A DNA stretch of 62,854 nt, from IMG/VR virus record IMGVR_UViG_3300044634_002660, positions 1 to 62,854 of that record; one strand, written 5' to 3'. The translations under genes were made by a program, and so were the position numbers. Shown piece by piece: positions 522 through 58,528 of the stretch. The DNA is from a virus. The notes beneath the pieces are model-generated. The model was not told the DNA's origin, ran no database searches, and saw nothing but the letters and a program-made list of their open reading frames with translations. The first letter of the stretch is position 1. Each line of letters opens with the position of its first letter.

Positions 522-795
522 TGTCAAACAGTCTATCAATAGCTTTCCACAAAGTAGGCCATTCGTTGCGATGTTTTTTCATAACATGATGATGATACTT
601 TGGAACAACCCCAGCATCTTTTACCGCTCTCTCAATATCGTTAAATATTGATCTATATCTATCGTTTTCCATCTTGGTAATCGCAGCTTCACTAGAGAAC
701 TTCTCTGCTGCTTTCATCCAAGTTTTAACTTGCTTTTCGTATTCCTGAATGCTTGCTTGCATATCACGGATTGTTGATTCATATTCATTTGACAT
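514..795 (-). CDS. Small charged helical hypothetical protein
   Basis: This 93-codon gene starts at ATG 795, at MSNEYESTIRDMQASIQEYE. The frame is open further upstream, but that extension only translates the tRNA-Asn gene and is rejected. The protein is charged and probably coiled-coil over residues 1-50, with a His triplet near residue 69. The A of its start codon is the last base of the CCA end of the tRNA, so the only Shine-Dalgarno-like bases (GGGAG) lie inside the tRNA acceptor end. Translation may therefore start on unprocessed transcript or at the next in-frame ATG, 11 codons in. Function unknown. Confidence 0.7.
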   Translation of the reverse strand: MSNEYESTIRDMQASIQEYEKQVKTWMKAAEKFSSEAAITKMENDRYRSIFNDIERAVKDAGVVPKYHHHVMKKHRNEWPTLWKAIDRLFDNA

Positions 796-870
796 GGCTC
801 CCAGAGTAGGGCTTGAACCTACGACACGCGGATTAACAGTCCGCTGCTCTGCCAACTGAGCTATCTGGGA
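795..870 (-). tRNA. tRNA-Asn (anticodon GTT), CCA encoded
   Basis: The minus strand folds as a complete cloverleaf. It has a 7-bp acceptor stem TCCCAGA/TCTGGGA, D arm GCTC/GAGC, anticodon stem GCGGA/TCCGC with loop CTGTTAA, a 5-base variable loop, T arm GTAGG/CCTAC with loop TTCAAGC, G discriminator and genomic CCA. The GTT anticodon reads AAC/AAT, and AAT is common in this AT-rich genome. It is probably transcribed from the promoter at 1005-1032, which also drives the 23S-like element just upstream. Confidence 0.96.
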
Positions 871-914
871 ATATATTGTGAGTATATCAGTTTGTTGAGC
901 CGGTAAAAGCCAAA

Positions 915-997
915 CCCCCATGCTTTCACATGAGGGTCAGCCGTAACTATAACGGTCCCAAGGTAGCCTGCACTCGCGCAACAGACACCATAGGTGC
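915..997 (-). ncRNA. Candidate small RNA antisense to 23S rRNA helix 69-71
   Basis: Downstream of a good promoter (1005-1032) the minus strand has no convincing gene before tRNA-Asn but holds a series of hairpins. First is GGCACC-TAT-GGTGTC (983-997), then a weak stem in 968-981, then the complement of 23S helix 69 (bases 940-957). Last is a stem at 915-936 (CCCTCATG against CATGGGGG, one mismatch) followed by TTTGGCTTTT, which resembles an intrinsic terminator. Together they outline an RNA of about 80-90 nt. Strand and transcript ends are inferred. The alternative is that the plus strand is the functional, rRNA-like sense. Confidence 0.5.
940..967 (+). other. 23S rRNA helix 69/71-like segment
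   Basis: Read on the plus strand, these 28 bases equal E. coli 23S rRNA 1907-1934 (all of the helix 69 loop plus the start of helix 71) except for C959 in place of U1926. The identity is from memory of the conserved rRNA sequence, which also includes the I-CeuI homing site. It is far too long for chance. Weaker resemblance to the rRNA flanks is visible: GAGCCGGTAAA at 897-907, and CTGCAC...CGCAAC after a gap. The rest of the 23S gene is absent, so this is not an rRNA operon. From memory, actinobacterial helix 69 stems often differ from this sequence. Confidence 0.85.
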
Positions 998-1004
998 CAT
1001 AGTT

Positions 1005-1032
1005 ATTATACACTATCGGCTATTGTTGTAAA
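1005..1032 (-). promoter_or_regulatory. Sigma-70-type promoter for sRNA/tRNA-Asn transcript
   Basis: On the minus strand TTTACA (1032-1027) is followed after 16 bases by TATAAT (1010-1005), a near-consensus pair. Initiation would fall near 997-999, at the first hairpin of the candidate small RNA. The -10 box begins just after the stop codon of the upstream zinc-ribbon gene. Confidence 0.7.
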
Positions 1033-1262: not shown

Positions 1263-1874
1263 TTAATCATTTTGCTCCTGAACAAAAATCTGAAATGGCG
1301 ATCCTGTATACGGATCAAACTTTGATGTGATTGAAAGGGCTTTATTTATAGCCGCTTTTGCTTTTTGGATTGGGAGTTGCTTTCCTCCCGTGATTGCCTG
1401 TATAGCACCAAGAGCATACGAAGAACCACTGCCGATTGCATAAACACCAGTACGGTCAGAAGTCCAAGAGTAGTCCCCATCAATTATATATATTACACCA
1501 TTAACAACCACAACAATTGTAGAGTTATGTTCTGCCATATGATTCTTTGTATCATTATCTGGCATGGCGTATCCATGATTCTCAAAACAATTTCTTAATG
1601 ATGGAATAAATTTTTGTGTAATAAAATGATCTAACTTAGCACCACCTTCCGAAAAAGTCGGTGTTGGAGGAACAAAGACATGGTGAAGTATGTTTATAGC
1701 TCGAACATCTCCAGCAGCTCCTAGGAGATATTTACCATTTTGAGCAATTTTTGCTGTTCCTGTTCCAAGCGTTGTGATTTGGAAAGCCATCCCTTGTTCA
1801 TCAAAAGATGAAACCCGTGAATCAGTACCTACTACAGAATAAGTATCTCCCTGAATAGCAACAATTGTAGTCAT
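1263..1874 (-). CDS. HslV / proteasome-beta-like Ntn peptidase
   Basis: This 203-residue protein starts MTTIVAIQGDTYSVVGTDSR, the classic HslV/proteasome beta N-terminus. Removal of Met1 would expose a Thr nucleophile at residue 2. The expected Asp is at 18 (mature position 17), a Lys follows in GTAKIAQ (residue 42), and the family signature AIGSGSSYALGAIQA is near residues 145-160. Length fits the family (about 175-240). Such peptidases form rings degrading unfolded proteins or a delivered substrate set. No ATPase partner (HslU/Mpa) is present in the window, so it may use a host unfoldase or act in self-processing or in host takeover. Confidence 0.88.
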   Translation of the reverse strand: MTTIVAIQGDTYSVVGTDSRVSSFDEQGMAFQITTLGTGTAKIAQNGKYLLGAAGDVRAINILHHVFVPPTPTFSEGGAKLDHFITQKFIPSLRNCFENHGYAMPDNDTKNHMAEHNSTIVVVVNGVIYIIDGDYSWTSDRTGVYAIGSGSSYALGAIQAITGGKQLPIQKAKAAINKALSITSKFDPYTGSPFQIFVQEQND

Positions 1875-7943: not shown

Positions 7944-10001
7944 GTGGTAAATAGTACATTAAATGAAAGTCTTTTTTCTTTTAGACTTAGCGATGATTTT
8001 GTTTCATCTTATAAAGAAAAGAAAGCCCCATTCGGTTATAGAGATGCAGCTGGCAATTCTGTTGGAGAAATCACATTTCTCAGAACATATTCAAGAAAGA
8101 AAGCCAATGGAACCAAAGAAACATGGGTTGATGTTTGTGAGCGCGTTATCAACGGCATGTATTCCCTTCAGAAAGACCATTGTAAAAAGAATCGTCTCCC
8201 TTGGAATGGCGTAAAGGCTCAGTCAAGCGCTAAAGAAGCCTTTGATCGTTTGTTCAATCTTAAGTGGACACCACCGGGAAGAGGTCTCTGGATTATGGGA
8301 ACACCTCTTGTAAATCTTCATAAGAACTCTGCTGCTCTTCAGAACTGTGCTTTTGTGTCTACATCTGAAATGTCAAAAGACAATCCAGCAGAGCCTTTTA
8401 CTTTCTTGATGGAGGCCTCAATGCTTGGCATCGGTGTTGGTTTTGATGATAAGGGTTCTGATAAAGATTTTGTTATCTATGAACCAAACAGAACAACGGT
8501 GATTGATGTTATTGCTGATGACCGCGAAAGTTGGGCAAGAGCTACTGGTGATTTGATTAATTCTTATCTTAAGCCATATCAGAATGCTATTGAGTTTGAC
8601 TACAGCCTCATCCGCCCATACGGTTCACCAATTGCTACTTTTGGTGGCACAGCATCAGGCCCAGAGCCTTTGATCAAACTTCATAAAGCAATTAAGAAGA
8701 TGTTTGAAGGTCGTGCTGGTGAAAAACTTACATCAACAGATATTGCTGACATTGGAAATCTTATTGGTGTCTGTGTTGTTTCGGGAAATGTTCGCCGTTC
8801 TGCCGAACTTTTTATTGGTAGAAATACAGAAGAGTTCTTGAATCTTAAAAACGCATCCGTTTATCCAGAAAGAAACTCTTATGACCCAGAAAATCCGGGT
8901 TGGGGTTGGATGAGCAATAACTCAATTGAAACAACAGTTGGGGCTGATATCTCCAACATTGTTGACGGTATTGCTCTTAACGGAGAACCCGGTGTTATTT
9001 GGATGGACATGTCTCGCAAGTATGGTCGTTTAATTGATCCACCAAACAATAAAGACTGGCGTGTTGCTGGATATAATCCGTGTGCAGAGCAGTCGCTTGA
9101 ATCGTATGAGTGTTGTACGCTCGTTGAGACTTATTTAAATCGCCATGATTCTCTTGAGGACTATAAGAGAACTTTAAAGTTCGCTTACCTGTACGCAAAA
9201 ACTGTAACTCTTCTCCCAACACACTGGGAAAAAACAAATGCAATTATGCAGAGAAACCGCCGTATTGGTGCATCAATGTCTGGAATCGCAAACTTTGCTG
9301 ATATTAACGGAATCCCCGTTCTTCGTGAATGGATGGATAGTGGATACGAAACTGTTAAGAGATATGACAATATCTATTCAGAATGGTTTGGCATCCGTGA
9401 ATCAATCAAGATGACAACGGTTAAGCCATCTGGAACAGTATCAATCCTCGCCGGCGAATCACCAGGAGTTCACTGGACACCAGGAGGAAAATACTTCCTT
9501 CGTGCAATTCGTTTTGGAAATGATGACCCAATGCTTCCTCTGTTCAAGATGGCAAACTATAGAGTTGAACCTGCATCTGAATCTCCAGAAACAACCTCTG
9601 TTGTTTTCTTCCCAATTCAGTCTGATTCTGAAAGAGCGGAAAAAGATGTGACCATTTTTGAAAAGATGGCTATCGCTTCTGTTGCACAGCGTTACTGGTC
9701 AGACAACTCTGTCTCTGTAACAATTTCTTTTGATTCAGAAACTGAGCAAAAGCATATCGGAACGGTTCTGCATATGTATGACGGTCAGTTGAAAACTGTT
9801 TCCTTCTTACCTTCTGGAAACTTCACATATCCTCAAATGCCATACACGCAAATAACAGAAGGTGAATACATTAAGGAAACATTAGACCTTTTCCCAATCG
9901 ATTTTGCTGGTGTTTATGCAGGAATGGCAGCTGATGCTGTTGGAGAAGCATATTGCACAACAGATGCGTGTGAAATTAAGTTGATTAAAGATAATATCTA
10001 A
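7944..10001 (+). CDS. Adenosylcobalamin-dependent ribonucleoside-triphosphate reductase (class II)
   Basis: A 685-residue monomeric class II reductase like that of Lactobacillus leichmannii. It has LQNCAF (N-terminal redox Cys), active-site NPCAEQSLESYECCTL near residue 379 with the thiyl Cys and Glu, the TVKPSGTVSILAG phosphate-binding segment, and a C-terminal redox pair in YCTTDACEIK. It reduces NTPs to dNTPs using adenosylcobalamin, so it depends on host or scavenged B12. The start is GTG at 7944, preceded by AAGGAG. Length is close to the usual 700-740. Confidence 0.93.
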   Translation: MVNSTLNESLFSFRLSDDFVSSYKEKKAPFGYRDAAGNSVGEITFLRTYSRKKANGTKETWVDVCERVINGMYSLQKDHCKKNRLPWNGVKAQSSAKEAFDRLFNLKWTPPGRGLWIMGTPLVNLHKNSAALQNCAFVSTSEMSKDNPAEPFTFLMEASMLGIGVGFDDKGSDKDFVIYEPNRTTVIDVIADDRESWARATGDLINSYLKPYQNAIEFDYSLIRPYGSPIATFGGTASGPEPLIKLHKAIKKMFEGRAGEKLTSTDIADIGNLIGVCVVSGNVRRSAELFIGRNTEEFLNLKNASVYPERNSYDPENPGWGWMSNNSIETTVGADISNIVDGIALNGEPGVIWMDMSRKYGRLIDPPNNKDWRVAGYNPCAEQSLESYECCTLVETYLNRHDSLEDYKRTLKFAYLYAKTVTLLPTHWEKTNAIMQRNRRIGASMSGIANFADINGIPVLREWMDSGYETVKRYDNIYSEWFGIRESIKMTTVKPSGTVSILAGESPGVHWTPGGKYFLRAIRFGNDDPMLPLFKMANYRVEPASESPETTSVVFFPIQSDSERAEKDVTIFEKMAIASVAQRYWSDNSVSVTISFDSETEQKHIGTVLHMYDGQLKTVSFLPSGNFTYPQMPYTQITEGEYIKETLDLFPIDFAGVYAGMAADAVGEAYCTTDACEIKLIKDNI

Positions 10002-27250: not shown

Positions 27251-27271
27251 ACACATATTGGAGTGTATAGA

Positions 27272-28735
27272 ATGAATAAAATAACAATAGTTGGCAGTGG
27301 TACCGCTGGTTTAGTCGGTGCAATAATGTTACGCTCAGCTTTCCCCTTGATAGACATCACAGTGGTTTCGTCATCTCAAGTTGGAATTATTGGTGTCGGT
27401 GAGGGGTCAACAGAACATTGGAGAATGTTTATGGATGCATGCAACATCCCTCTTGGCGAACTTTTAAATGAAACACAAGCAACCCATAAAAACGGTATTA
27501 GATTTGAAAACTGGACAAAACACACCCCTGATTACTTCCACAGTGTAAGTGATGCAAGCACCATTGGTTATTACAATTTTTACGGCTTATACAATGGTCT
27601 TATTGAGAATAATAAAACATTGACTGAAAATATTGCATCAAGAGCAATGATAGAAAACAAAGTTCGTGCTGACAGACCCCATGAATCTGTGAACCAATAT
27701 CATTTTGATACTGCCCTTCTCAACAATTATTTAACAAAATTATGTCAAGAAAGAAATATTTTTTTCATTGATAGCAAAATCGTTAAAACAAATTTAAGTA
27801 TCGAAGATGGTAGTATTAAATCAGTTATACTGGAAAATCAGGAAATTCTTGAGGCGGATTTTTGGATTGATGCATCAGGGATGGCTCGTATTCTTATATC
27901 AGAGGTAAGTGATGCTAAGTGGAAGTCTTTCTCCAATCATCTTCAGATGAATTCGGCAATCCCTTTCCCTACCGAATCTGACCCCTCTGGAGAAATTAGA
28001 CCATACACAAGGGCTAGGGCTATTCAGAACGGATGGGTTTGGGAAATCCCAACTCAGCAAAGAAGAGGTAATGGTTATGTTTATTCCACAAACTTTTGCA
28101 CTGATGATCAAGCAATTGCTGAAGTGTCAGCGTTGCTTGGATTTGAGGTTCAACCAGTAAAGACTATTAAATTTGACCCCGGTCATCTCGAAAAGATGTG
28201 GGTAAAGAACTGCGCTGCAATCGGTCTATCTTCTGCTTTTGTTGAGCCAATTGAAGCATCCTCCATTGGAGGTACAATTCAACAAATGAGGTGTTTGGTG
28301 GAGAATTTGTCCTCGTACAAGATTGGCCACACTGCTGTTCAAAATGAATACAATAAGAAGATGAATATTATGATGCAAAATATTTTATCCATGATTTATC
28401 TTCATTACATGTCTGACAGAAGAGATACTGAAATGTGGATAAACCAAGCGAATACACCAGTTCCAGAATATTTGCAAAACTTACTAGATTTGTGGAGCGA
28501 AAGACCTCCGTTCCATAATGACATACCAACAAGTAATTATGAAATGTTCCATGTTCCGCATTTTTATCATGTAGCCCAAGGTCAAAAGGTTCTGTCTAGA
28601 GATGCCTCTTCGCTTGCTATAAGTAGATTTAACATCAGAGATGCTGTAAAAAACTCTATGTATTCTGCTAAAATAAGACAATCAGATCATGCAAAGGTGG
28701 ACCATGCGAAATCGCTCAAAGAAATACAATTATAA
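27272..28735 (+). CDS. Flavin-dependent halogenase (tryptophan halogenase family)
   Basis: A 487-residue FAD enzyme from ATG 27272 (GGAG 8 bases ahead). It has the GxGxxG fold start KITIVGSGTAGLVGAIMLRS, then VGIIGVGEGSTEHWRMFM and ATHKNGIRFENW with the conserved Lys position of tryptophan halogenases. WIDASGMARILI and the halogenase-specific WxWxIP string (NGWVWEIPTQQRRG) follow. With reduced flavin, O2 and halide it would halogenate an aromatic substrate. Phage halogenases are known (VirX1 of a cyanophage, from memory). No flavin reductase was seen nearby. Confidence 0.9.
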   Translation: MNKITIVGSGTAGLVGAIMLRSAFPLIDITVVSSSQVGIIGVGEGSTEHWRMFMDACNIPLGELLNETQATHKNGIRFENWTKHTPDYFHSVSDASTIGYYNFYGLYNGLIENNKTLTENIASRAMIENKVRADRPHESVNQYHFDTALLNNYLTKLCQERNIFFIDSKIVKTNLSIEDGSIKSVILENQEILEADFWIDASGMARILISEVSDAKWKSFSNHLQMNSAIPFPTESDPSGEIRPYTRARAIQNGWVWEIPTQQRRGNGYVYSTNFCTDDQAIAEVSALLGFEVQPVKTIKFDPGHLEKMWVKNCAAIGLSSAFVEPIEASSIGGTIQQMRCLVENLSSYKIGHTAVQNEYNKKMNIMMQNILSMIYLHYMSDRRDTEMWINQANTPVPEYLQNLLDLWSERPPFHNDIPTSNYEMFHVPHFYHVAQGQKVLSRDASSLAISRFNIRDAVKNSMYSAKIRQSDHAKVDHAKSLKEIQL

Positions 28736-33452: not shown

Positions 33453-36400
33453 ATGGCTGAAAGAAATGGTAGAGTAGAGATAACTGCTGAGATTGATCAA
33501 CGACTTCAATCTGCCCTATCTCAAATGTCTTCTAGTCTTCGCAGTACTATTGAAGTAACAAACGCTGTAAATAGATCAACAGACTTGACAAAATCGACAA
33601 TGCGCGGTTTGAGTCAGGCTCTTTCCGTAACAAGCGGCTCTACTAATGAATATAATAGATCTGTAACTGAAGCTGTTAAGAATCAAGCAATCTTAGCAAG
33701 TCACTTTGGCAAAACAAAAGAAGCCATAGCCAGCCTTAATAAAATCATGGCCAACAGCCGGGGGACTAATGTAACTTCTCAGGATATTGCTGTTCAAAGA
33801 GCTTTCATTAATCAGTTGCAGTCTCAACTGGGTATTCAAAAAGAATTACAGAAGTATTCAAATACTCAATCTTTAATGGCACAAAGCAATGCCTTAAACT
33901 CTTTGGCTACAAAGTACTCTTATGCTGGAAACCGCTTGTCAATGGGGTTGACACTTCCCTTAGTCGGTTTCTTTAGAACAGCATTCTCCAACTATAGAAG
34001 ACTAGAAATAGAAACTGTTCGCACAACAAAACTTCTGGGTGACTCTTATACCGATGCTGGCGCTCAGGTAAAAACTCTTGGAAAAGAACTTGATGCTATA
34101 TCTCTCAAGTATGGTGTTGCTAGAGATCTTGTTCAGGGGCTTGCTGGCGACTATGCTGAATTGGGAATTACAGATATCAAGGCTCTTTCTGGATTAACAG
34201 ATTTAACAGCAGCAACTGAAAAACTTGGTAATGTTGATATCACTGAGGCTTCAAACTTCATCAAGTCTATTTATCAAACAGTTAATCGTGTTAAAAGAGA
34301 TGAGGCTGCAAGGGCTGGTCGTGCAATTAGCTTCAAAGATCCAGCAGAGGAGGCTCTCTTCTATGCTGATTCTATTGCTCAAGTTCGTGGTCAGTTGGCG
34401 ATGTTCAACCTTTTGGAAAACAAAACCTCTTTGGCACTTCAAGACATTGCGAAAGCATTCCCTGAATTAACAGCAGCATCAACCTCTTTTGGTCTTTCAA
34501 TGACTGAAGCATCAGCTCTTATTATTCCGATGGTTGCTTCTGGTTTCCAAGTAGGTGCTTCAGCAAACTCTGTGAAAGTTTCTTTGCAGAGATTAGTTGC
34601 TATGACAAAGAAGAACCAAGAAGCAATTAAAGAACTCAAATTAACTCAAGCAGATTTCAACTTTGAGGCTGGAGTTGGCATTGAAACAATTCAAAAACTA
34701 TCTGATGGTTATGAAAGTTTGAAAAGGACAAGAGGTGATGAAGGAGCGTTGAGATTCTTCTCCGATCTTTTCGGTGTTCGTCAGGGTCCAAGAATGGAAG
34801 TCGCCCTCCAGAACCTGAGTCAGTTCCAAAGTCAAATCAGCAAAGCTGGAACTATTGAAGATCAGTTAACAACGCAATTAGAAAACTATGTAAGACAAAG
34901 AGCCGGACAAGCTGGCTTGGGTGAAAAATATAGCAAAATGGAATTGACAAAATATTCTGACTTGTCAAAAGTTATTCGTCTTTCTCAGAATGCGGATAAA
35001 GAAGTTGCTTCTGCATTCACATCAGCAAGAGCAGACTTTGGTAATTATCTTGTTTCAGAAAGCAAGAGAGGACAAGACCTTCTCGGCAAGGTGACAACAG
35101 AAACTGGTAGAGCATTATTTGCTGCTGCTTCAGGTGGTGGCAAAGGTTCTCAAGCAGAGGCTACATTTAACTTAGAACTTGAGAAAGCCTTGGATACGGC
35201 TGACAGAAGATACAAAACATCAAGAGAATCCATCAAAGCGCTTGGTCGTGAAATGGTTCCTGTATTTGACTCAATCTTAAAAGTGGTTGTTCCATTATTA
35301 GAAAAATTTGCAAAATTTGTTGGAGGTATTCCATCTGGCTTTAAAGCATTCTTGACAATTGGCGGTCTAGTTCTAGCAATGCTTGGACCAATAATGAAGA
35401 TTCGTGGTGCATTTGCACAACTTCATTCAAGCGTTCTCTCTTTCAAAGCATCAGGGGGGATATTTAAAAATCTTAAATCATCAATTCATCCAATCTCTGC
35501 AGAACTTCTTGCGTCTTCTGATGCATTTTTGAGATTTAAAAATAAATTAACTCAGGTTGGAAATCAATTCTTTTTCAAGGGAACAATTAAAGAGTTAAAG
35601 CAAATGGAGAAATTGATTGCTGCTCAATCTTCAGGTAGAACAAGAGTATCAGATCGTCTTGAGAAAAAGTTGAAATTAAAAGAAACAGCAGATTATTCAG
35701 GTTTATATGAAGAAACATCAAACCAACTTAAAAATGTATTTGATGAATCTCTTGATGGATACTTAAAACCATATAGCGGAATTAAGCCAGATATTACTGG
35801 AACAATTATTGATGGTAGAGTCGTTGGCTTAGAAATGGGTAATGCTTTTGTTTCTGTTTTAACAAGTTTAGGTTTTGATCCTAGAGCCTTTACAAGAGTA
35901 GCGTCTACTGCTGGATCAGCAACGACTACAACTACTCCTGCTGGAGATGTTGTTGTTGTTCCACCAAACATAAAGAGAACGGGTAGCAGGACACCTCCTC
36001 CCGATGATGACGGTCCAGATGGACCTCCATCTGGTGGTAGTCCAGCAGGTGGTAGTCCAACAGGGGGCGCTCCAGCAGGTGGTGGTGCTGCACAAAGAGG
36101 GCCGAGAGTTCGTAATGCAATGTCTGGTCTTGAACAGGTTTGGGGCGCATTGCAGGGAACAATGGATTTTGTTAATAGTGCAACAAAGTCTCAACTTCAA
36201 GATTTTGCTAAATCATTAAATATTACAAAAGTTTCCGGATTTACTGTAAAGAGTCCTAAGTTGAAAGTTGCACAACTTAGAAGAGCAATCATTGAAGCCA
36301 TATCTGCTCCTAGTCAGGTTATTGCTAAGGCTGCTGAGGAAATTCAAACTACTGTTGAGCAAGTTAAAGAGACTGTTAACAACAACGCACCTCCAGCAAA

Positions 36401-39400
36401 AGATACATCAAAAACAAAGAAAGCCTCTGCAAAAGCGACGGAAAATGTTGCTGAAGCGCAGGCTGATGTTGATACAACTGCTGTTGTCGAGCAGGGTAAA
36501 GAAGATGAAAAGACAGCAAAAGAAACAAAACCAAAAACTGGTAGAAAACCTACAGTAAAGAAAAAATCAGAAGAAGCAGTCGATAATACTGCTGAAGCGC
36601 AATCTACTGCAGATGCTGCCACTGTTGTTGAACAAGGCAAAGAAGACAAAAAGGTTGTTGAACAGACAAAGCCAAAAACTGGTAGAAAAGCTCCAGTAAA
36701 GAAGGCTTCTGATAAAGCAGTAGACAATGTTGCTGCTGAACAAGCAAAAGCTGATGCAAAGGCGGCTGAGCAGCAGGGCAAGGCTGATGCCGCAGTAGTT
36801 CGTTCTGGTCCAAGAACAATTAAAGCAAGACTTAAAAGAAAGCCATTCCTTAAAGTTGATAAGAATCTTGAAGGAACTATTGGAGCCTTTAGTCATTTAA
36901 CTTCAACAATTAATGAAATGGTTGCCAACGCACAGCAAGTTAAAAAAGTTTCTGTTGAAGAAGCAATTGCAAAATTAAATTTAGGTATTAAAGGTTCTAA
37001 AAAACTTCGTTTTACTCCTAAAGACTTTACTCGTCTTGCTGAATTGATGGGTGTAATCCTTCCTCAAGCTTTTTATGAAATTCAAGAGTTTACAAATAAA
37101 GCCGGGAAGCCACTACAGATTCAGGCAGATAGTCTTCAAAATATAATTAATGCTATTGCAAAAATTGTTCCAGCATCTGAATCCCTTCCAGAGCTCGCTG
37201 GTAAAAAAGTTTTAAAAATTGAACAAGATTTGAATAGAGCATTTATTGCTCTTGAAAAACAAGGTGGAACAAAAGCTTTTAATATTGGTAATATTGTTGG
37301 AACATTGCGTCATACATTGAATGAAGCAATAAACATGATGATTCCAAAAGAAAACTTAAAAGAAGGTGTCGTTGTTCCATTAGAGGAGTTAACTTACAGT
37401 GACCTTGGAACTGGTGGAAGAAGAAGTCGTGGTCGAAAAGTAAAAGCAAAACCACTTGACTATGATAGTTATGTAGATTCTGCAATACAATTTACAAAAA
37501 CTTCTACAGGTACAGAATTTTGGCGGAAATTAAGAAAAAATTTACAACTTAGAACAGGTAAATCACTGTTTGAAAAGTCGATGACCGAAGAATCATTGAA
37601 TCAATCATATGGTCCAGCAACTGGTGAAGTAACTGAAGGAAATGTAAGAGTTGCAAGAGCATTATCTTTTGGCAGAGCAAAGAGTAGAGGTGCGAGAGCG
37701 CTATTCAGAAGAGAAATAGACTTTGCTAGTTCATTAGATAAACTTACAGAAGAAGCATACAATGCTCATCGTGCAAAAATTGAAAAAGGAATTGCCGATG
37801 CAAGAGCTCGTATGGAAGTTATTAAAAAAATGTTTAGTGCGGGTATGGACACTGACCCGGATAAAACAAAATTATTTTCTATAGATGAATTAAAAGCTGC
37901 ATTAGCGGATTTTGAAAGAGAAATGCGCGAGGCTAATCTTAATGAGGATATTAACGAAGTAATTGAAAAACTTAAAGGTCAATCGGAAATTATTTCTAAA
38001 AATAGAAATAGACCAGGCAAACTTGTGTCTGGTGAAGATGCTATTTTTGATATTTCAAAGAGGTTAGATGAAAACCTCGCAAAAGCTGAAGCATCTTTAA
38101 AGGCAGAGTGGGGAGATGCCGCCCCAGAGGGAGCAAGAAAATCAGCAATTAGAGCGGCCTTTAGGCAAACAGCAAGCGATTTGCAATATGCTTACATGGA
38201 GCAATTAGCATTATTCCAAAAGCAAGTCACCAAAGAAACTCCAGAAGTTGCAAGAAATCTTGCTATTGCAGATGAGAATGTTGAAATTGCAAGAGGCAAA
38301 CTTAAAGATGTAAAAGGTCTTAAGGTTGGCTCTGAAGAAGGAAAGGAATATTTCAAAGGTCGTAAAAAAGCTGATGTTGTTAAGGGTCTTGAGAAAGAAT
38401 TAAGTTTATTAGAAGAACAAAGACATGCAATTAAACTTCAACATGATGAATTAGTTAGAAGAAATCAGGCTGAGCAAGAAAATATTAGGAATCTTGAAAA
38501 AGTAAGAGATGCACAACTTGCTATTCTACAATCAAGAAGGGTCGATATTGGTCTTCAGCCAATTACAATATCTGGTCCAGCAATCGAAGATACTTCTCCA
38601 TCAAGCAGCGAAAGAGCAGAGGCTTATTGGAAATCAAGATCAGAGTCCATGTCGAAAGCTCTCAACCAAGAAGATGCAGACAAAAGAGCTCCTGATGCAA
38701 TTTCCACAACGGTAGTTAATGCTATTACTCAAGTTTCTCAAGAGATTCTTGATGCAGAGCAAGTCGTAAAGGCAGCAAGAGAAAGATTAGATGAACTTAT
38801 TGGTCTTAGAACAGATATTTCAATGTCTGAACCGGGAAAGCCTTTTGCTGAAAAAGCACAAGCAAGAGTTAAAGAAGCTGTTAAAAATCTTAAAGTTAAA
38901 GCCGCTAATATTGATAAAGAAATCGTTAAACAAGAAAAAACTCTTGAAGAAGCAAAGACTGAATTAGCAAAAGTTAGTGAAAGAAGTCGTGCTGGTGGTG
39001 GAGGTCGAACTGGTTCTGTAAACCTCGGAATGCCAATGGCCGGTGGTTTTGGTGATCCAATGTCAACAGACCTTTCTCCAAGAGGAGGAAGAAGATCTCC
39101 TCTTGACATGATGACACCAAGAAACATCATGAGCATGATTCCTTCCGGTGGAGATTTAACTCCTGACCTTAGCGGTGTTATTGAAACTCTGTTTAAACAA
39201 ATTTCTCAAGCTATCGGAGCACCTGCTGAGGTTATGGCGGGGGTTCTTAAAGATATTGATGACAGAGCAAAGAGAGTTTCAACAATTGTAAATACTTCTC
39301 TTGATCAATTTGATAATGAACTTGTTAATAAACTTATTACTCAAATTCAAGGCCTTCTCGGAGATAGTGAATTAACTGTTGAAAATATTTATAATGCAAT

Positions 39401-42400
39401 TCTTGGTGCAAGAAACCAAATTTATGGAATGGTTCCAAAAGAGATTAAAGGTAATGTAATAAGTGGTAAAGCAACTGCTGAGCAAGTTACTGGTCTTGTT
39501 GAGGCTTTAAATCTTTACAATGTTTCAAAAGAAGAACTTCTTAAACTTGATGCAAGAACATTGAGAAAGATTGCTGAAAAGATGAAACTTGAAGGTAGAG
39601 CAAAGGCAAGTGAAGATGTTCTTGCCGGTCTTATCCATAATGCAATATTTAATCTTGATAAAGAAACAATTAAGGCAATTGATCTTGTTGCTCTTATGCC
39701 TGTTGTTGAAGCAGGAGCAACTGTCAAGACTGCTGGCAAAACTGTTCCAAAACCAGCTGCTCAGAAGAAAGTTAAAGAAGCGGTTATTAAACTTGAGGAT
39801 ACTGTTGAGGAAGTGATTGTGACAACTGAGCAGGTCATTGAGACAACGGCAAAAACAGTTGATGCTGTATTCGTCAAAATACAGAAGTCTATTCCAGTCG
39901 CTGTTCGCGTTGGGCAATCCGTCTTAGACCGTAGGGCTACAGGAATCGGAAGCGGTTGGAAGGCATCTGACGATCCAGTTTCTCCACCAATTGCTCCGAA
40001 CTTACCACGCACTCCGGGGCCATTCCCTCCACCAAGATTTGGCTACGGAGGAACAGATTCTCAAGATAAATTCCTTCTTAGCCTTGTTAAAATCATAGAT
40101 GCTTCTGTTTCTGCTGGTAAAGCAGTTGGTTCTCTATACCTGTCGGTCATGAGGGCTGGAACAATGATGCTTCCATTTGGCAAGACTGTATGGAACATTG
40201 GTTCAGGATTCGTTTCCTTAACACAAAGCGCAATTGCTCTTTATAAGAGCTCTAAGGAGGCTGGAACGGGTCTTCAGGGCGTTGGGAAGACTCTTAAAGA
40301 GATTGCGAAAGCAAAGATATTTGGTGGAACATATACAAATGCACAAGGTAAGCAAGTCGAATCAGCTGGTGTTCTTGGTCGATTGAGCGGAACTGCTGGT
40401 TCGATAAAGCAAGCATTCTCTGGTGCAGCAGGTAGTGGTATTCAAGGTCTCATCAATACGGCAACAATGGGTATGGGGCAATTTGGATTTGTTGCTGGCA
40501 ATGTTCTTCAGAACCTGACTTCTGCACTCCAAACAATCCCGTATGTTGGAGGTCCAGTAGTTGGCATTCTTGGTGCAATTGCTGGCTCAATTTATCTTCT
40601 CATTAAGTCATCAACCATTTGGAAAGGAACAAACGAAGAAGCCTTTAAAAACTTTAAAGATGCTTGGCAAAATATTAAAGACATCTTGTCTGCAATCGCA
40701 GGCCCGTTTGAAGACTTCATCGGAACGCTTCTTGGAGCTCCAGAGGCTGGTGCAAACGCAACTGATTCGGCAAAAAGCAAGCTCCTTGCATTCTCAAATT
40801 TCATTCTCAACCTTTCTAATAGAATTGAATCTTTTGTAAAAGACTACATTGTTCCAGCAATTAGAAGATCACTAGAAATTGTTGTTTATATATTTAATGC
40901 AATTAAACCATTTGCCTCAGCAACTGTTGGATTGGTTGTTGCAATCTTTAATCAGATAACAAATAGACAAGCAAATATGGTTAAAAAAGCAGGAGATCTT
41001 TTCAAGCAAGGAACTCAAGAAGCAAGCGCTGGAAACTTTAGAATGGTTGATAATGCAATCAGAAATGTTAAAAGTGTTGAAGATGCTTGGGCAACATTTA
41101 AAAATTCTTTTAAAAATGTTTGGGAAGCAATTACTAATATTGTTCAATATTATTTATCAATAATTTATCTTAGAGCATATATGTTCTTAAATCTTGCAAT
41201 GGCAGAGATTCTTCAATCATTGGTTAGTCTTTTCTTTGAAGCCGGTCAGCAAATGGGTGAGGCTATTCAGAATGGTATGTTTTCAAAAATCAAAGGACCA
41301 CTTAAAGTTCTTAGCTATCTTAGCCCAGTAGCTAGAGGATTAGGCCCTCTAGGCTCCCTTATAGGGATGGCAAGTAGTGGTGCTCAAGGAGTATCCAATA
41401 ATTTCTTTGATAAGACACAAACAGATATCACAAGTAAGTTTAATAAGATGATTAAAGCCATTGAAAGCAGCGGTCAAGGTAAAGCAGCTTTTGATAAACT
41501 TCTTAATTCCTTAATGCCAAAAGGCGCTGGAAGTGGACTGTTCAAGTCGTTTAGAGATTTACTTACTAAAGTATTTAAAGACCCAACTGCTGCAAATGCT
41601 GCTGCTGACAATTTCAAGGATGCTGTAAATAGTGCTTTATCAAACCTTAAGCAAACCTTCTTTAATGCCGCATTAAGCGGTTTAAGCGATGCTGTTTCAA
41701 AAATCAAGAGTGAAGTCTCCGATATTCTTGAGACTCAAAAAGAAGAGTACCTTAAGGCTTATGATGATCAAATTGCTGCTATTGACGCAATGGTTGAGGC
41801 TGAGCAAAGACTTACCGCAACAGAAGAATATGAAGCTGACAAGAGACAGAGAATCAAGGATAGAGAACTTCAAAGACAGAACTATCAGAAGAATCGTACT
41901 TTGGCAATCTATGAGGGAAGAATTGATGATGCACGACAACTTGACCTTGAAGAGCAAAAAAACATTTCAGATTTCAATAAAGAAAATGCCGATGCAGAAA
42001 CTGCAAGGAATAGAGATCTTCAAGGTAACGCAAGAGCAGATGCAAAAGCAGTTATTGAAAAGCAAAGGTTGGAGGCTTCTAAATTATTTGATCAGGCAAT
42101 TAAGGATTTCAACGAGTATGTCGAAACTGTCGGTAAGAATGGAACATTAACAGAAGCTCAATTAACAGAGCAATGGAAAAAAATCTCTGAAGAAGCAGAA
42201 AAAACCTCAAAGGGATTGTATGACACATTCAAAACTTCATTTGAAGCTCTTCCGGGAGCAATATCCGCTGTTACCAATTCTGCTGGTGGTCTATTTAACA
42301 TTCCATACGACAAATTAATTGAAGAAACAAAGAAGCAATTTGGTATTGGAAATGAAAATGCAGACTCAATACTTGGCTTAACAAGATCGATGCTCACAGG

Positions 42401-45400
42401 TCAGGGTTCTGCAATATCCAGTGCTTTCGACACAAGTGGTCCAATTACAAAATCTTATTCTGAAGGTCTTGAGAAGTTAAAGACTTATATTGCAACTAAA
42501 AATTCTGGAGAGGGAGAGGATAGCCTTAAGGGCATCTTCAAGAAGATTATTGCTGACGCTAACGAAGCAGCAAGGCAAGAAGTTCTCAAGGGGCAGACTG
42601 GTATTGGAAGTGCATTTGACCAGTTGGTTGGGAAAATGGATGCATCTCTTAGAAAGCTTGCGATAAAGGATATTGTCGCAGCTCAACTTAAAGAAGCGAT
42701 TGATCTTGTTAATAATACGACAATCCCTGCTCCTCGAATTCAAAACAGAACCGATGCAAGTGGTAATAGTGGATTTGGCGCTGGTGGACAGAGAGTGCCA
42801 GCAGGCAGTAATCAACCAACTCCCGGATTTGATCCTAGGTCAGTGTTTGGTCTTACAAGTGGTCAAGACACTACATCACAGGGTCAGTGGTGGTCAAGAT
42901 TTAGACTGAATAACAAATCTCCTTGGAATGCTTGGAATAAATTTGCAGCAGACAAACTTCCTATGTATCAGAACTTCCAGTTAAAGAATCCACAAAGATG
43001 GGAACTTAAGTTCCTTCCAAAGTCGATTGCTGTTGATCCTAATACAGTTATTGGTGGCACAAACTTCGGCCCAGTTCGTTTTAATGGTGGAGCTATCCCG
43101 TATGGAAATGGTGGTCCAACAGAAGGTCCAATGCATCAAGGCATCCCCGCAATCCTTCATGGCGGTGAGTATGTTGTTCGGAAGTCTGCTGTTGATAAGT
43201 ATGGCACCGGAATGCTTCAAAAAATCAACCAAGGAACATTTGGGAAGAAAGGCGGTTTCTTTACTGGTGGAAGAGTTCGTGGAAGCAGCTTGGATGTTCC
43301 TGGTCTTAATATGGGAACAGATCCTAAATTTAATACAACAAGAGATGTAATTCGTAAACAATATACTAGTTTTTATGAAGGACTAGAGAAATTGGCCCCT
43401 AGTAGAGATAGAGCTCTTTATGAATGGCAAGTTTCAATGGGTGGTCTTAATTACAATTATATGAGAGAGATTTGGAGAAAAGAATCAAAAGATTGGGCTA
43501 ATAAAGGTGAATACGCTGGTGGTGGTCTTGGGATTGAATATGACAACTGGAAAAAATGGGGAGGTTTGGAATTCTCAGATTTCCCATATAATGCAAATCC
43601 ATATCAACAAATGGCTGTTTATAACAGAATGTTTGCTCTTGGTTATAAAGGAAAATATGGCGTAAAAGAAAAAGCCTTTAGTGCGGCTCAAAGAATTAAA
43701 GATACTTATGGTGGTAAATTGGCTGCTTTCCATTTTGGTTCAAAACAACTTTATGACAATGATGCATTTGTAAATAAAAATACTCCATCAAATAAAGATA
43801 AAACAAACAACTCTATTATTGTTTCTGAAAAGGATGGCATTGGGTACACACCAACAGGTAGTGCCGGATTCCGCAACTTCATTCCAATCTCTAGATTGAG
43901 AGATAGAAGAGGTAAAAGATTTGTAGACGCAAGATCTTCTTCCTACAAGCCATTCTCTTTGTTTAATGGTGGTTCAATGCCTCAATTCAAAAAGGGAGGC
44001 CCAGTCCGTTTAAGTTGTGGTATTTGTGGAAAAGGGTTTGCAAACGGAGGTCTGTTAAGAGCTCATCAACACACAGGTCATTTCAATGGTGGTTTGCTAC
44101 CAAGTTATAAAGTTGGTGGAACTGTAAAACCTGCTGCAGTAACTTTAGATGAATCGATTTATGGTCCAGAGCCAACAATTGATGAAAAAATGATTAAATA
44201 CATTTCTTGGTATAATAAAGACACAACGCCATATGATGCTCTATTCGATGTAAGACTAGGCGTTTCTGAGAGAACCGATCTTGGTCTTGTTAAAGGTATG
44301 GGAGATATTGGAACTTTAAGTAAATTCTATGAGAATGAAAAATATCCAAAAGGAACTATTGGTATTGGAAATATTTCCGATAAGAAAAATAAATACAATC
44401 GTGCAATCCTTACTTTAAAGAAAAACGCTCCTAAAAATGCAATTGATTATTTTAAAAAACTTATTTATTCTGAAATACAACGAGCAAAGAAAGTTCAAAA
44501 ATATCAAGAATACTATTTATCACAAGAAGAGAAATTTGCTTCTGATTATGCGCCATCTCCAAGTAAAGCTTTTGTAAACATACGAGGATTTGACTTCCAA
44601 CCTTATGAATATGACTGGCAAACAACAAGTATTGAGATGATGGCGAATCAACTTAAACAAGGAAACCTTAATAAAATTAAACCATTGAAAGCTTTTTATC
44701 AAAATTGGGATTCTAGTAAAGTTAAAAAGATTATTGGTATTGATCCTATAAAAGAAGGGTTCTATACAGCAATGAATTCCGTCTCCAAAGTAATAGGATT
44801 TGATGATTTTTCTATTGCTGATTCAAAAAATGCATTTCAAGATGCTAGAAAATATTTTAATAATAATAAAAATGTATTGGCTTTAAATGCACAGCCTTTT
44901 CCTCCTGGAGAACTTCCTGAAGGAAGTACTATAGGAGGAAGAGCTTCTGTATTCATGCCAGAAAAAATTGGAGGATCATCGTCTATATCAGCAATAGATT
45001 ATAATCCTAAAGTACTTGATTACTACCTAGATCACTATAAGAGAGGGGATATTGATAAATCTACTCTCAAGATACAACAACATATGAAACCTGATGCTTG
45101 GAAGAGAATATTTCTTCATGAATTTGGTCATTCTATTAATCTAGGTCACCTTGATGAAGGCTACAGGTCATACAGAAGCGGAGAAGAATTACCAAAAGGC
45201 TTTAGTTCACCATTTGATAGAAATGAATCCATTATGTCTTATGCATATGTAAATCAAGATGATACCCCCGCAAGATTTGGTATTGGAGACATTGCATATA
45301 TTCAAAGACTGCAAGATATTATTTTTAAAGGTAAAAAGCCAAAAACCCCAAAGGCAACGGTTCCATCAACAACGACAACTACTCCATCAAGACCTACTAC

Positions 45401-48400
45401 TACAACGACAACTCCTTCAAGACCTACAACAACGACAACTGTTCCATCAAAACCTACTACGACTACAACTGTTCCAAAGGCTCCTACTACAACTGTTCCT
45501 CCAAAAACGACTACAACAACTGTTCCACCTACAACGACAACAGTTCCTACTGTTCCTTGTCCTACAATCCCTGGTGTAACACCAATACCTAATCCAACAA
45601 TACCAAATCCTGGTACTACAACAACTATTCCTAAAATACCTGGGGTTACTCTTCCTAATGGCACAACAACAACATCAATTCCTGGTATTGACAATACAAA
45701 ATGTAAAGTAATACCAATTAGAGTTTGGGATAACGATAAAAATCCAGGATTTACAGAGGATAGTTTTGCTGGAATGACTTGGCCAATGGCAAGAGATTCT
45801 CAATCTGGATGGAGAAAATGGTTTAGAGAAAGAAAAACTATTGGATCAAAATGGACTTACTGGAAAGTTGTAAATCCTAAAGAAAAGGCAAAGCTTGCAA
45901 AGAAGCAAGTTAAGAATCCTGAGCTTATTGAGAGTATTCAATATCCGGTTCCTCATGACCCAAATGCTTGGCAGATGGAGAAAGACAAATACCCAGAAAG
46001 ACAACCCAGTAGGGGAGGAAGTAAATCCGGGAAAAATGGCAGAACATGGCGTATTAAATGGGTAAAAACTTGTGAGACTACTCCACCAACAGGAACAACA
46101 TCGTCAACATCAACTACAACAACCATGCCAAATGGAGTTCCATCAACATCTGTTCCTGGAGTTACGACATCTACAACACCAATAAGACCAATACCTAACC
46201 CAACAATACCTCAGCCCTGTTTCCCTCCAGAAATTTATCCAACAGGGTTAAAAGTTCCACAATCTAGAATTGTTGCTATTTATGACAAAGATCCAACATC
46301 AAGATTTGTTGGTGGAATTATGCCATATGCAAATGGAGGTCCAACGGTAGGACCAATGCATAAAGGTATTCCTGCCATTCTTCATGGTGGTGAATATGTT
46401 GTAAGAAAGAGTGCGGTTGACAAATATGGCACCAACATGCTTCAGAATATTAATCAGGGCACATTTGGTAAAAAAGGCGGTTACTTTAAAGGTGGTCTTA
46501 TTCCATCAGGGCTTGAGGTATCTTCCGATAAGAAAAATCTGTCCAGATTGGGATCTCTTAAAATCCCAAGACTTCAACTTAACAGTCCTGTATACGAAGG
46601 TGTAAATGAGGATACATTGAATGCTGGTCTTGGACATCAACCGGGTACACCATTTGGATGGTTGGGTAATACCGTTATTGGTGGACATCGCACTAAAGGC
46701 AATAGCCTATTTAGAAATATTACAAAAATGATTAAAGGCGATAAAATTAATTTAACTAGAGGTAATTCTAGTTATGAATACGAAACCGCTTATTCAAGAA
46801 TTTTAAAACCAAATCAAGTTCAAGAATTAATGGGACAACCTCAAGGTCAAGTTAGTGGTTATAATTCAATATTAAGCCTCTTCTCATGCCATCCTCTTGG
46901 TTCAACAAAACTTAGATACATTCTTATTGCTAAATTAAAAAAGGCTTTTGATGGTAGAAAGGTTTCTAGATACAAGATTGGTGGAGTTGTAAAGGGAGGC
47001 AAGAAATCAAATCCTGCCGGAAATCCACCTCCTCCATACAAGACATGGGAAGAGTATTTTGCTGCAGAGGGACCACTAACGCCATATCAAAAATCTATTA
47101 TGATTCCTAATAGGAATAATAGTAGTAACCTTCAACCTTACGATAAGAAATGGCGCGCTGAAATAAAAAGAAAAAATGAGGCTTTTGATAAAAGTTTTAT
47201 TAATAGATTTGTCAAACCTGTTAGTGAGATTTTTGGTCCTATGGCTGCTATCAAGTTCGGCGCAGAAACAATTACTGGTAAAGACCTAGATGCCGCTGCT
47301 GGTTCTAATAAAAAACAAAACCGTCTTGGTTCTGCTGCCAACACCATTTTGTCGTTAATACCCTCAAAGGTTGTAACAAAACCACTTGGAAAGATTGCAT
47401 CAAAAACTGGTATTTCTGGAATTGCTTCTAGAGTTATTGGAAAGGGTTCTGGTTTAATTGGTAATCAACTTAAAGGTTTCAAATCAAAATTTGCATCAAT
47501 GTTTAAGGGTCTAAAATCTTCAAAGGCAGCGAATAGTGGTGTGATTGAAGATCAAATACCAACACACTGGGGAGCAATTACTCAAGGATTAAAGGAAGGG
47601 GTTATTCCAACAAATAAACAAGCAGTTGATGCTATGCTTGCAAGGCAAGCACTTGAATTATTTGATGAATTAGATTATTTAGTAACTGGTCAAATAAAAG
47701 GTAGTGTCAATAGCCTTGATAAAGCTCGATTCTTAGATCAGTTAATTCTTGATGCAATAAATGATGTCCCTACAACTGCCACTAAAGATTTGAGCGTAGA
47801 AGACAGACTTTTTGGTATAGCTAAAAGTCTTGCTAATCTTTTAAACCCAAAAAAGGGATTAAGCGCTCTTGACCCAAGAATTCTTCCAAAATCAAAAGAA
47901 TTAATTGAATATCAACAATTTGTAAAAGATTTTAATGGAATGCTATTGCGTGAAGTGGAGTTAAGATCTTCAGCTTGGAATAAAGCAAATCCAAATGCAA
48001 CCCGTGAAGAACAAAGTGTAGCATATAAAGATATTCTCGATAACTGGTATGATAAAAATAAAATTCCAGATACTCCACTTTCAACAAATGATATTGCTCC
48101 TAATACAACTAAAAAAATTAAAACACCTAATAAATCTAAAAAAAATAATATCTTTAACCCTTTTAAAAATATCTCACCAAAAAATAAAAAATTTAATGGT
48201 GGAGCTATTCCATACTTTGATGGTGGTAGTACATACGGATCAGAGAGCCAAGGAATTCCTGCAATTCTTCATGGTGGTGAATATGTAATTCGTAAATCTT
48301 CTGTTAATAAATATGGAACAAATATGCTTCAAAATATCAATCAGGGTATTTACAAGAAAGCTGGTCAGTATAAGATTGGTGGATATGTTGATGGAATTAA

Positions 48401-58245: not shown

Positions 58246-58528
58246 TTGGAAAGAAAAAGCTCTCTGTTACAATCATCCAGAACTCAGCATTTGGTTTTCT
58301 TATAAAAAAGAAGATGTGGACAGGGCGCAAAGCATTTGTAAAAAGTGCCCTGTCCGTGTTGAATGTTTCATGAGTATGTGGAATACTGGAGACTTCTACG
58401 GTATAAATGGTGGAGTAAGTGAGTTTGAATACCTATCTATGACATGGAAGGAGGCAACCAATGAAAAACAAAGTAACAGGACAAGAGCTGATAGAGTGCT
58501 TAAAGGAATCTTGCAGGGACTCAGGTAA
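58235..58528 (+). CDS. WhiB-like iron-sulfur transcription factor
   Basis: A 97-residue protein from the second of two adjacent ATGs (58232 or 58235). Four cysteines, at 11, 35, 38 and 44, in the pattern C...CxxCxxxxxC (ICKKCPVRVEC), plus the turn YGINGG, define the Wbl family, which binds a 4Fe-4S cluster and contacts sigma factor. Wbl proteins are confined to Actinobacteria and their phages, so this is the best host marker in the window. It may redirect host RNA polymerase or mimic a host Wbl, as WhiBTM4 does in a mycobacteriophage. Confidence 0.92.
   Translation: MQSSWKEKALCYNHPELSIWFSYKKEDVDRAQSICKKCPVRVECFMSMWNTGDFYGINGGVSEFEYLSMTWKEATNEKQSNRTRADRVLKGILQGLR

Follow-up and report, generated by a model that had tools for sequence, protein, structure and literature searches.

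Small RNAs proposed to act directly on ribosomes are known among the ribosome-associated noncoding RNAs and the tRNA fragments, which are cellular, unlike the phage RNA described here, and which are not known to form long antisense duplexes with rRNA. Box C/D small RNAs guide methylation through box C/D proteins, a machinery not known in bacteria. Those of archaea and eukaryotes also carry a guide stretch complementary to rRNA (PMC4644070); in the RNA of this work no such boxes were recognised, and it has no Rfam match at gathering score. Phage trans-acting antisense small RNAs (e.g., the c4 RNA of P1/P7) are likewise small, with their complementary bases displayed by hairpins, and as described they target mRNAs, whereas the RNA considered here is complementary to 23S rRNA (PMC12197685). 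The main text of that 2025 review of phage small RNAs has neither ‘23S’ nor ‘rRNA’ in it, and searches of the open-access literature turned up no paper describing a 23S-complementary phage RNA. A precedent as to target is a synthetic peptide nucleic acid directed at helix 69 (Kulik et al. 2017, cited in PMC7038079), which relies on the same antisense pairing and inhibits the growth of E. coli; it is, however, man-made chemistry, whilst the element described here would be a gene. The novelty is the proposed class of target and, as an RNA gene, the element resembles ordinary antisense small RNAs.

Anatomy of the element

The window (i.e., the whole 62,854-nt stretch of viral DNA analysed) contains a segment that reads as a phage small-RNA gene forming a compact transcription unit. 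On the minus strand, from 1032 to 905, it consists of a promoter, hairpin 1, a second hairpin, GCUACCUUGGGACCGUUAUAGUUACGGC, a stem and a T-rich tail (Table 1), and a scan for promoters and terminators placed both the best promoter and the only terminator found on this strand. An earlier sequence-only reading had proposed such a TTTACA-16-TATAAT promoter and terminator-like stem, and both hold, the stem being at 938-913, 3′ of the core. The extent of the RNA is the one predicted from promoter, terminator and conservation. Folding of the minus-strand RNA beats that of shuffled sequences (z -2.3, 3/200), and the plus-strand fold is unremarkable (z -0.9). The promoter overlaps the 3′ end of an ORF that we call FmdB-like judging by its short Cys-rich sequence, not by family search.

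Table 1. Features of the element and its surroundings (window coordinates)
Feature	Position	Strand	Basis or remark
Sigma-70-type promoter TTTACA-16-TATAAT	1005..1032	minus	promoter scan, 11/12
FmdB-like zinc-ribbon ORF	about 1013-1186	minus	limits read from sequence
Predicted small RNA, about 95 nt	905..999	minus	start near 998-999, end in terminator tail
Hairpin 1, GGCACC-UAU-GGUGUC	984..998	minus	GACAC..GUGUC in relatives
Hairpin 2 region UGUUGCGCGAGUGCA	969..983	minus	sequence comparison and fold
Anti-23S core GCUACCUUGGGACCGUUAUAGUUACGGCUG	938..967	minus	complements E. coli 23S 1905-1934, helices 69-71
Intrinsic terminator CCCTCATG-TGAAAG-CATGGGGG and T-rich tail	905..938	minus	terminator scan and fold
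tRNA-Asn gene, downstream of the small RNA	795..870	minus	ARAGORN and Rfam
HslV-like peptidase gene, conserved upstream neighbour	1263..1874	minus	PHROG 1040, E 1.2e-24
WhiB-family gene	58247..58429	plus	PF02467, E 1.9e-12, over cut-off

At its curated gathering threshold Rfam matches only the tRNA, 880-1060 giving weak matches at chance level, and the 23S covariance model (RF02541) scores the sense strand at 7.1 bits, below its cut-off of 50. Among the families of this RNA recognised in the present work, an independent unit with promoter and terminator is found in family A and is less firm in families C-F; in the Vibrio family neither was identified.

Complementarity to 23S rRNA

The match to E. 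coli 23S 1907-1934 in 27 of 28 positions, seen in the sequence-only reading, was reproduced by blastn, window 940-967 being present at 27/28 in the 23S rRNA of 5395/5426 E. coli genomes; the numbering also holds, the motif CCGTAACTATAACGG being at 1902 in a gene copy whose annotation lacks 6 nt, which corresponds to E. coli 1908. The single mismatch (C959 for U1926) does become a G-U pair in the antisense duplex, and the minus strand of 938-967 pairs with 23S 1905-1934 over 30 uninterrupted nucleotides, two of the pairs being G-U. This site has a complementarity score of 29.0, whereas the next one reaches 10.5 and none of 100 shuffles exceeds 16.5. The same target, encoded elsewhere, is the best 23S site of every family (scores of 18-29, next best at most 13.5), with predicted duplexes of -27 to -52 kcal/mol. 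The scores come from a local scan, used instead of unlimited duplexfold of whole RNAs against the whole 23S, which was uninformative. The core is partly buried in the predicted folds. Further complementarity, across helix 71 (GUGCAGG with UGUUGCGC, against 23S 1962-1980), looks appealing in the window but is lost in the relatives L167-L169 and is not claimed.

Conservation in close relatives

Two further viral contigs have the exact 28-mer, 14 have a relaxed core and nine a second version with CUUGAGGAUCGUUAUAGUU. The gene recurs in about two dozen contigs besides the window, in the same hslV/fmdB synteny, with an HslV-like gene close upstream wherever the contig reaches that far, and the end of the FmdB-like ORF too. 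Such independent contigs, with the same 28-mer or core and the same neighbours, exclude rDNA contamination and the assembly chimera that the sequence-only reading had allowed for. In the last viral scan HslV proteins served as an RNA-independent anchor, avoiding the bias of searching with the RNA itself; nearly every close relative whose sequence extends far enough downstream carried the RNA, new variants (L167-L171) included, and more distant relatives (from about 70% identity down) did not.

Promoter and hairpin are conserved in the related phages, as that reading suggested checking: precisely 6 nt separate the -10 box and hairpin 1 in 9/9 subvariants compared, and GGA(C/U)CGUUAUAGU is intact in 14/14 aligned distinct RNAs, hairpin 2 and the terminator being variable. 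In hairpin 1 of these 14 sequences 100% of the cells are paired, with changes only from G-C to G-U and from A-U to G-U; since none is double-sided, this structural evidence is supportive and not proof. The hairpin 2 region UGUUGCGCGAGUGCA is swapped for CGGUGCGCUUCGUGCCG in L167-L169, and the terminator is replaced in relatives by other sequences that still have a GC stem with a T-tract. Next comes tRNA-Thr or tRNA-Asn in some relatives, and tRNA-Arg in some Vibrio phages.

Recurrence in unrelated phages

The motif CCUUGGGA(YY)GUUAUAGUU also occurs in unrelated intergenic contexts, each time in antisense to this 23S site, both in cultivated Vibrio phages of ~130 kb and in at least four other phage settings. 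When the window element was compared with annotated phages by blastn, genuine 23S records were returned and, in addition, Vibrio phages of about 120-140 kb that match it between genes (9 records in all). Their element contains GCCUUGGGACCGUUAUAGUUAUGGC, 24/24 positions of which pair with 23S 1907-1930, and the helix 69-71 region of Vibrio campbellii and of another Vibrio is identical to that of E. coli. The core version of Vibrio phage VnaP is GCCUUAGGAUCGUUGUAAUUACGGC; this one and L116 have one mismatch each with 23S. Pattern scans added further contexts (L108/L109/L111; L110; L125/L131/L135; L132), the motif lying just after a capsid-like CDS in L125/L131/L135 and after an amidase-like CDS in L132, in both cases before a terminator. 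Judged by eye the flanks are unrelated among contexts, with the 23S-complementary core kept, and intergenic, in all of them. Conservation inside the pattern is not evidence, most core bases having been fixed by the scans. The two open bases and the extension do count, because the scans left both free: the former are CC, UC, UU or CU, each of which can form pairs with GG, and the latter (UACG/UAUG/UGCG) complements 23S 1909-1912. The exact core has only 4 matches in the bacterial genomes of 84,980 species.

Other candidates were set aside. L114 has the look of a scrambled assembly of 23S, and L112 and L113 that of chance matches in coding-like sequence; L121-L124, L126-L130, L133 and L134, coding-like and with neither a terminator-like nor an ACG extension, were taken as chance. 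L115 is a 23S relic beside an interspersed repeat: its positions 1-60 are a degenerate 23S-like stretch in antisense, next to trpS and a dispersed palindromic repeat on a contig of a cyanobacterial MAG, and share the base change of the window at 1926.

In the Vibrio versions L104, L105 and L116-L120, GUGUCGCUACC is invariant, and its UCGCUACC complements 23S 1929-1936, a target adjoining the main one in permuted order; across 45 kb of the Vibrio phage R16F, this element is the sole place with GGTAGCGACAC. The large terminase subunit of R16F (L244 12455-14945) is annotated as five separate CDS, as if split by introns or other insertions.

Alternative explanations

Across variants 22-24 of the 24 positions pair with 23S 1907-1930 in antisense, and the substitutions mostly swap Watson-Crick and G-U pairs with 23S whilst breaking helix 69 of the sense strand, which favors an antisense RNA over a decoy or a relic. 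The clearest comparison is that of VnaP with the other Vibrio phages, where five core differences in 24 nt, four of them interchanging Watson-Crick and G-U, leave 23/24 pairs, the flanking RNA being nearly identical; with p between 0.001 and 0.05 by simulation, depending on the transition bias, this is suggestive evidence and not overwhelming. That the plus strand mimics helix 69-71 as a decoy for enzymes or nucleases, a possibility raised by the sequence-only reading, is hardly credible: the window retains all 5 pairs of the helix-69 stem, but only 2-4 of 5 persist elsewhere, and the plus strand has no terminator, no good promoter and the unremarkable fold given above. Very improbable too, although the core overlaps the I-CeuI target and genuine rDNA relics such as L115 do exist, is an rDNA fragment left by homing (another suggestion of that reading), transduction or assembly. 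Such an origin would not account for the conserved promoter spacing, for gene anatomy and synteny maintained in many contigs or for the recurrence of the motif in cultivated phages, and relatives have changed the site itself through pairing-preserving substitutions.

Two further interpretations accept the small RNA. In one, which we consider unlikely, the core was captured from 23S long ago and is now kept for the RNA's own fold, a protein partner or an mRNA target. In its favor, family A keeps the E. coli-type core in probable actinobacterial phages, and most families have a CCC-containing element with which UUGGG can pair; VnaP, however, has A at the G position, so that this fold is not universal, and the 23S-complementary stretch is all that unrelated families, differing in flanks and folds, have in common. 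Its substitutions track 23S pairing and, in the Vibrio phages, it matches the 23S of known hosts. In the other the RNA pairs with 23S so as to help the phage and not to inhibit, by anchoring to 50S, by protecting helix 69-71 from a nuclease of the host or of a toxin or by biasing ribosomes towards phage mRNA. This rival has most weight where the motif comes after late genes: it lies immediately 3′ of CDS stops in L125/L131/L135 and in L132 (in families E and F it occupies the 3′ region behind a capsid-like and behind an amidase-like gene), and phages need host ribosomes late in infection; nevertheless the core is the only element shared, and overall we hold this explanation to be rather improbable.

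A model for the action of the RNA

We therefore favor, with a probability of roughly 0.63, the explanation that a small RNA of the phage invades host 23S rRNA at helix 69-71 and so, presumably, keeps subunits from joining or 50S from being assembled; pairing with 23S is likely to be the selected function of the core. The antisense RNA put forward by the sequence-only reading thus stands as the best interpretation of the anatomy, the recurrence and the pairing-preserving substitutions, whilst transcription, ribosome binding and the effect on translation are what we infer from them. Host RNA polymerase would transcribe the RNA of about 95 nt from the minus strand, and its hairpins would display the core. 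The first contact would probably be made between the helix-69 loop AACUAUAA and the exposed UUAUAGUU, a loop contact well suited to an initial kissing interaction that leads on to strand invasion (UUAUAGUU is predicted to be mostly unpaired in several families, not all). The core could then pair with 20-30 nt of 23S (about 1907-1934) and so open up helix 69, together with helices 70-71 on their 5′ side, in 50S subunits that are free or still being assembled. If the growth-inhibiting peptide nucleic acids that bind helix 69 are a guide, 30S joining or 50S maturation might be blocked in favor of the phage.

If so, phages would have RNA, in addition to protein, as a means of acting on the ribosome, at its main inter-subunit bridge and at a site already validated for antisense inhibitors, and this would be a new RNA family and a new viral way to shut off or redirect host translation. 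The version of the cultivated Vibrio phages is fully complementary to the Vibrio 23S checked, which makes the idea directly testable. It is tempting to extend it to a natural class of viral rRNA-antisense RNAs, in which several unrelated phage groups of actinobacterial and Vibrio hosts have come, by separate acquisition or by exchange, to carry an RNA that unzips helix 69 of host 23S rRNA and thereby controls host ribosomes during infection; this generalisation is tentative, its chances being somewhat short of even.

The host question

The main weakness of the antisense reading is that the probable hosts mismatch the RNA at one or two bases. WhiB, an actinobacterial marker, is encoded by the window phage and by 12 of the 20 related or motif-bearing records searched; families A, C and D carry it, so that their hosts, that of the window phage among them, are probably Actinomycetota. 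The objection, raised in the sequence-only reading, that actinobacterial helix 69 differs from the core was well founded: in Actinomycetia it is GGUGGUAACUAUAACCAUCC, with C and A, in the cultured members, where the RNA has CC or UC, so that the window RNA has two mismatches and the second version (CUUGAGGAUCGUUAUAGUU) one. The site of the core is still the best in actinobacterial 23S, with a weaker duplex (-37 against -52 kcal/mol; -22 to -37 overall). The C opposite 23S 1921 is invariant, though it faces C in actinobacterial 23S, and would be unexplained if the hosts have helix 69 of that type. The probe HGC69a (TATAGTTACCACCGCCGT), used for freshwater Actinobacteria, matches the actinobacterial type and suggests that lake hosts share it. 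Searches that allowed an actinobacterial (CCAUCC) version of the motif recognised none in RNA-like context.

The ribonucleotide reductase of the window (7944-10001, plus strand) is 78% (77.7%) identical to that of the predicted actinophage DSL-LC01, and the HslV-like protein only 48% to its counterpart there, hinting at recent exchange. The full core is absent from DSL-LC01. An exact 15-nt complement of 23S (TCGCTACCTTAGGAC) occurs there between genes on the minus strand (L232 4235-4249), adjoining a strong GC hairpin, the neighbouring gene being on the other strand. DSL-LC01 is also annotated with a tryptophan halogenase, a gene that the window carries at 27263-28735 (plus strand; PF04820, E 2.6e-102). 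About a quarter of the window is taken up by a single ORF of 5068 aa (33453-48659, plus strand).
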